A stretch of DNA of 64,000 bases from Clostridia bacterium (GTDB lineage: Bacteria > Bacillota > Clostridia > TANB77 > CAG-465), in contig JAFXHJ010000006.1 in the NCBI GenBank assembly GCA_017536445.1, positions 1 through 64,000 on the forward strand, read 5' to 3'. Shown here in pieces: positions 1 through 64,000 of the stretch. The notes under the pieces were generated by a model, which was not told the DNA's origin, ran no database searches, and saw nothing but the letters and a program-made list of their open reading frames with translations. Position numbers and translations under genes: made by a program. Within the stretch, counting starts at the first letter, position 1; each line of letters starts with the position of its first letter.

Positions 1-383
1 CAAACTTTGCAAATACAGAGGCATATGGAACAAATGTAGTAGGAGCAATAGGAGGACCAACACTAGAGTTATTAGCAGCAGGATGGAATGCAAAGGGCTA
101 TACACCAACAATGGCATTAACAACAGACACATATGGATACAAGATAAATAATGCTAATTATATAATTGTAACAAGTGATGGATTATATGTACCATCAAAT
201 AATTACTATTGGTTGGCGTCTCCGTCTGCTAACTCCTATAGCGATGTTGTGCTTGCGGGCTATGTCCTTGTGAGCTATGACGCCTGCAACCGTACTAGTG
301 GCGTGCGTCCCGTAGTTTGTCTAAAATCTAGCATCCCAGCAATAGCAGGAACAGGAGAGTATGATTTTAGCTTAACAAAATAA
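1..383 (+). CDS. 3' end of a secreted/pilin-like protein with a DGR-type variable C terminus (partial)
   Basis: The reading frame is open from base 3 to the stop at 381-383, so this is the C-terminal part of a gene that starts before the window. The last third contains WLASPSAN, then a stretch of small and polar residues, then GVRPVVCL. This WL(A/R)SP...GVRPV layout is the C-type-lectin-like / formylglycine-enzyme-like fold seen in DUF6273-type and DGR target proteins (established knowledge, recalled from motif shape). The protein ends with EYDFSLTK shortly after. Bases 241-320 are 56% G+C by my count (45/80), against 27% (16/60) for 121-180, the kind of local jump expected where a retro-copied cassette replaces gene sequence. 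The N terminus is unseen, so a pilin-type start is only inferred from the family. Confidence 0.75.
   Translation, partial: NFANTEAYGTNVVGAIGGPTLELLAAGWNAKGYTPTMALTTDTYGYKINNANYIIVTSDGLYVPSNNYYWLASPSANSYSDVVLAGYVLVSYDACNRTSGVRPVVCLKSSIPAIAGTGEYDFSLTK
206..325 (+). other. candidate DGR variable region (VR)
   Basis: This block encodes NYYWLASPSAN...NRTSGVRPVVCL. It is much richer in G+C than the DNA on either side and sits at the extreme 3' end of its gene, where DGR variable regions lie. The variable-looking positions fall between the conserved WLASPS and GVRPVVCL anchors. The matching template repeat and reverse transcriptase are not in this window, so the call rests on protein layout and composition only. 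Confidence 0.6.
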
Positions 384-63960: not shown

Positions 63961-64000
63961 ATGAAAAACAGAAAAGGGATATCATTAATAGTACTAGTTA
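63961..64000 (+). CDS. start of a prepilin-like protein (partial)
   Basis: Only 13 codons are inside the window: MKNRKGISLIVLV. A short basic start, Gly at the cleavage point and a run of hydrophobic residues is the type IV prepilin / pseudopilin signal, though the usual Glu at +5 is not seen (ISLIV). Proteins with this GISLIVLV start form expanded families in uncultured Clostridia, some with C-terminal variable domains like the one at 1-383 (recalled, not checked). The ribosome-binding site is weak (GCGGGAATGTAT). Confidence 0.6.
   Translation, partial: MKNRKGISLIVLV

Follow-up and report, generated by a model that had tools for sequence, protein, structure and literature searches.

Positions 210-326, at the left edge of a 64,000-nucleotide stretch of Clostridia DNA (the window, by which we mean the whole stretch analysed), very probably form the variable region (VR) of a gene targeted by a diversity-generating retroelement (DGR), the core cassette of which would lie in unassembled sequence. 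A DGR-diversified region had been proposed here in a preliminary description, and the proposal is supported on the target side, because the VR varies in a characteristic pattern among paralogs and between two species, is followed by a stem-loop, and has counterparts in related Clostridia, where complete cassettes carry a template with the same start.

In the mechanism that we propose, an A-rich template RNA with AAC and AAT codons, predicted to take the form TGGTTGGCGTCTCCGTCTGCT-AAC/AAT...GTGCGTCCC, would be reverse-transcribed with errors at adenines, and the cDNA would replace the matching 3' end of a target gene, aided by a 3' homology segment and by the stem-loop after the stop codon. At least six genes scattered over this genome most likely draw on a single template, and their products would join a prepilin-like N terminus to a C-terminal DUF6273 (C-type-lectin-like) domain. 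Such rewriting would probably provide the cell with pili or pilus-like surface proteins whose binding tips can change, pilus display and ligand binding both being presumed, and the putative core would comprise MSL, Avd, the template repeat (TR) and the reverse transcriptase (RT).

The truncated target gene and its variable region

The window starts at the first base of its contig (C3) in a genome of 1.31 Mb and 21 contigs, which is estimated to be 100% complete. The frame at 3-383 on the plus strand is open and represents the 3' part of the target gene (126 codons), the 5' part being removed by the contig start. Its C terminus, YYWLASPSA...GVRPVVCLKSS, confirms the WLASPS...GVRPVVCL frame that had been recognised at the left edge; the product shares 70% identity with the matching part of a full-length paralog of 348 aa, and matches DUF6273 with E=3.5e-4, under the curated cut-off. 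The G+C content is 24.7% at 121-205, 52.5% at 206-325 and 36.8% at 327-383, close to the jump from 27% to 56% inside one gene that had been described, and the fraction of A is 0.46 before 206-325, 0.15 inside and 0.40 after. The segment 206-325, the coordinates and description of which were correct, is the most A-poor 120-nt stretch in the window and lies within an A-rich gene; among the 63,880 120-nt positions in the window, 9 are as A-poor and 27 as G+C-rich. Further downstream, three adjacent ORFs (1351-1596, 1685-2272 and 2386-2991) match the Spo0A C-terminal domain, the first being an 81-aa fragment whose match is under the cut-off.

The VR proper was placed at 210-326 (plus strand, 39 codons, TGG...CTAAAA) by column analysis of nine VRs and by the foreign-template test given below, and is flanked by the conserved anchors WLASPSA and GVRPVVCLK. 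According to the column analysis it contains a hypervariable core at 231-302 (plus strand, codons 8-31), composed nearly entirely of NNC/NNT codons, followed by a near-invariant 3' end at 303-326 (plus strand) that is conserved across paralogs and, judging from its position, is a candidate IMH (initiation of mutagenic homing) segment. The TR of related cassettes has CTAGCTTCT at its end, at the place where the VR reads CTAGTTTCT or CTAGTTTGT.

The nine VRs are of equal length, five of them coming from this genome and four from a sister species (genome G001). Their pairwise difference in the core is 46%, 43% and 14% at codon positions 1, 2 and 3, against 12%, 7% and 20% in the 41 codons upstream, and of the columns at first and second positions 38 of 48 vary in the core, as opposed to 22 of 82 in the upstream codons (p=7e-9). 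Moreover, A is present in 27 of the 28 core columns with at least three bases and in none of the 25 invariant columns; throughout codons 1-34 all invariant columns are without A, in a gene that is 42% A upstream. The codons of the VR are nearly all NNC/NNT, and about 58% of the third positions upstream are A. Third-position conservation counted by columns was not significant (9/24 versus 22/41, p=0.30), for which reason wobble conservation alone was dropped as a proof. The pattern is the one that a template of AAC/AAT codons copied with errors at adenines would be expected to produce.

The stem-loop, the paralog family and the predicted protein

The small hairpins that had been noticed after the stop codon are real and make up one composite stem-loop at 404-440 on the plus strand (GTGCAAGTGGT...ACCACC...AAGCGCAC), a candidate DGR hairpin or cruciform, which is matched by a covariance model at 397-451 with E=3e-15. 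It is kept after six paralogs of this genome, the window gene included, and after three genes in G001. The alignment of the nine copies gives a consensus of 12 pairs with one compensatory pair, and since the covariation is slight, the stem-loop is supported mainly by its conserved sequence and position. In the two genomes the covariance model returned nine strong matches, every one after a VR gene; as the model was built from those same nine copies, what it adds is that neither genome holds another strong copy. The copy in the window is the weakest among the nine. A tenth, weaker match (C16:5314, 26.7 bits), adjoined by no family gene, was set aside as chance. Hairpins of phage DGRs lie 4-34 bp past the VR, against 77 nt here, and in BPP-1 a hairpin of such kind is required for efficient retrohoming (PMC3240598). 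A function as terminator was rejected, because in two related cassettes (L117 and L118) a hairpin at the same place has no T-run and is followed by cassette genes; the other family members, without the conserved stem-loop, have different, terminator-like hairpins.

The state of the VR goes along with the stem-loop. Counted over 26 codons, third-position A occurs 0-1 times in the stem-loop genes and 1-11 times in the 15 genes without a stem-loop (p=1.4e-4, a value to be taken only as a guide because the genes are kin), a few genes, C4b and G001 C58 among them, being exceptions that keep the signature without the stem-loop. We read the genes without a stem-loop as former targets that have been drifting after its loss, in this presumed order of events.

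The full-length relative of 348 aa has 57 matches in this genome, about ten of them close. At least six genes possess an intact VR signature together with the stem-loop, and about a dozen paralogs lack the stem-loop and, mostly, the signature too. Full-length members carry an N-terminal prepilin-like segment (KKQGISLIVLVITIIVMIILAASVVITL; GISLIVLVITIIVMIILA in full-length paralogs), for which the TadF match is weak, and 6 of 8 members show a weak DUF6273 match at the C-terminal domain. In gut phages, DUF6273 has been described as a DGR target domain of C-type-lectin-like character, with models that resemble C-type lectins (PMC10743442, PMC11792537). For a protein of the sister species, a structural model of middling quality (pLDDT 65, pTM 0.73) was submitted to Foldseek; the top matches were mostly C-type lectins and none was significant (best E=0.21), and the predicted structure was considered too weak as a proof of that fold. 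The genome encodes PilB/PilT-like ATPases and a prepilin peptidase, and it is plausible that the family proteins are displayed on a type IV-like pilus. At the other end of the window, a further prepilin-like family member (MKNRKGISLIVLV...) begins at 63961-64000 and continues to C3:64269.

Cassettes in related Clostridia and the missing core

When GTDB genomes were scanned with the 20-mer TGGTTGGCGTCTCCGTCTGC, seven stretches were returned; within the order it is found in 3 of 385 genomes. Two of the stretches, L117 and L118 from rabbit-gut Clostridia MAGs, contain complete DGR cassettes, comprising a prepilin-like target with VR, a hairpin, a MutS_I-domain protein, Avd, TR and RT. The TR is AAC-rich and starts with this same 20-mer, and the RT bears the motif IGSMTSQ. 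G055, a genome of the same order, has a third TR/VR pair, accompanied by MSL and Avd (contig C69, stretch L106); a DGR-type RT of this genome sits on a different contig. In L117 and L118 the MutS domain I protein is matched with E=3e-8, and Avd matches NF033474 with E=1e-9, under the curated cut-off. The MutS domain I (PF01624) protein, with the rest of MutS missing, stands between target and Avd in all three (L117:2481-2930, L118:6077-6526 and L106:1908-2348). Downstream of the template in G055, L106:3371-6633 holds three tandem near-alike ORFs of about 275-309 aa, which we take to resemble Rpn/PD-(D/E)XK transposase-like proteins.

The differences between TR and VR fall on TR adenines in 25 of 29 cases in L117, 21 of 24 in L118 and 16 of 17 in G055 (first 107 bases). 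As the template of this genome is missing, TRs of other genera were used to predict the variable columns of this genus. With the TR of L117, the columns that are A in the TR are variable in 13 of 13 cases and the non-A columns in 5 of 32 (p=1.2e-7); with that of G055 the corresponding numbers are 13 of 14 and 5 of 31 (p=1.4e-6).

RT and template had been supposed to lie outside the window. They are indeed absent from it; they are also absent from the entire assembly and from G001. In this genome, searches for a TR with the VR, and with a synthetic template derived from the VR columns, returned only VRs, and no TR-like copy was found in G001; neither genome yielded an RT to the RVT_1 profile and DGR RT protein searches, and searches for Avd and MSL with related proteins gave only true MutS. 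In a genome of the sister genus, G002:C35:242-925 (L123) is a fragment of a DGR-type RT with two stop codons, which suggests a decayed core. At the same time, the contigs tend to end at these genes: 10 of 42 contig ends lie within genes of the family (P about 7e-8). Of the six stem-loop VR genes, five are broken at a contig end, always on the 5' side. The downstream side, where relatives carry the cassette, is assembled for every stem-loop VR gene and contains no cassette. Since contig ends cluster in the family and five genes are cut on the 5' side, a further target with its cassette may sit in a gap, and we regard an assembly gap as likelier than loss to be the reason for the missing core. 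The preliminary description had taken the lack of a template repeat and RT in the genome as a sign against a DGR; the assembly indeed lacks both, and we do not judge this as refuting, because nothing else tested explains the adenine-site signature and it is at these genes that the assembly is interrupted.

Loss of the core in the lineage, after DGR activity had made the VRs, would have turned the genes into frozen variants or fossils, a parallel being the known Treponema denticola strains that have targets and lack RT and TR (PMC4891356). Such a course would agree with the failure to find RT, Avd, MSL and TR in either genome of the genus, with the interrupted RT fragment in G002 and with the graded decay of the VR signature among other family members. 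We consider it unlikely: six VRs of this genome and three of the sister species retain near-perfect template-like constant sites and the stem-loop between flanks diverged by about 15%, which suggests that rewriting was recent or took place after the species split, and the clustering of contig ends in the VR genes also speaks against it. An ancient loss is disfavoured because VRs are fresh in two species that differ by about 15% at orthologous loci. Fresh targets in two MAGs without a core could also be accounted for by a core acting in trans from a separate, unbinned element such as a phage, a plasmid or an integrative element, and relatives of the DGR RT with 33-39% identity do exist on viral contigs. 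However, neither the 20-mer TGGTTGGCGTCTCCGTCTGC nor a longer template-like 23-mer was found on any viral contig, and in complete relatives the core directly adjoins a target gene of chromosomal type, so that supply in trans appears improbable. It would be equally surprising if pilin-like receptors throughout the genus were rewritten in trans by an off-chromosome core, with loss of the stem-loop retiring receptors and leaving a series from active to fossil genes.

The variable tips might have arisen without any retroelement, through ordinary positive selection or gene conversion between paralogs, which are many and alike enough for recombination. Yet this leaves unexplained the A-free invariant columns, the near-exclusive use of NNC/NNT codons despite third positions that are about 58% A in the gene, and the success of foreign templates in predicting the variable columns, and no VR mosaics with shared multi-codon blocks are apparent by eye in the codon alignments; we give it hardly any credence. 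A DGR target whose core fell into unassembled sequence is the reading that we retain.

Known systems and implications

The mechanism is a known one, and this genome is a further multi-target case. As in the DGR of Bordetella phage BPP-1 (mtd, avd, TR, brt), a C-terminal VR ends in a homology segment, after which an inverted repeat is found, and Avd, an adenine-rich TR and RT recur in the cassettes of related Clostridia. Unlike BPP-1, the targets here are cellular, pilin-like, many and dispersed, the core was not found in the same genome, and the related cassettes have an added MutS_I-domain gene. The multi-target DGR of Treponema denticola likewise has several remote surface-protein targets, but these are mostly lipoproteins, in contrast to the prepilin-like N termini here. 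DUF6273 targets of gut phages (tentaclins; Faecalibacterium prophages) share the domain family around the VR and are phage proteins, whereas ours are cellular and have a prepilin-like segment. In Bacteroides, DGRs diversify pilus-associated proteins of gut bacteria, including tip pilins of type V pili (PMC12632263); pilus type and phylum are different from the type IV-like prepilin signals in Clostridia. Multi-target DGRs (PMC6642488), with up to eight targets (PMC10743442), and DGR-diversified pilins are already known. In the literature covered, which excludes most subscription journals, we did not find described the combination of prepilin-like DUF6273 targets, VRs graded from seemingly live to decayed, and relatives with an MSL-Avd-TR-RT core.

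The case indicates that MAG assemblies may be interrupted at DGR targets and drop the core, so that systems of this kind would escape surveys that take the RT as their starting point. Targets with and without the signature in one genome offer a within-genome view of receptors entering and leaving DGR control, and the findings point to hypermutable tips, probably displayed on pili, in gut Clostridia with small genomes.
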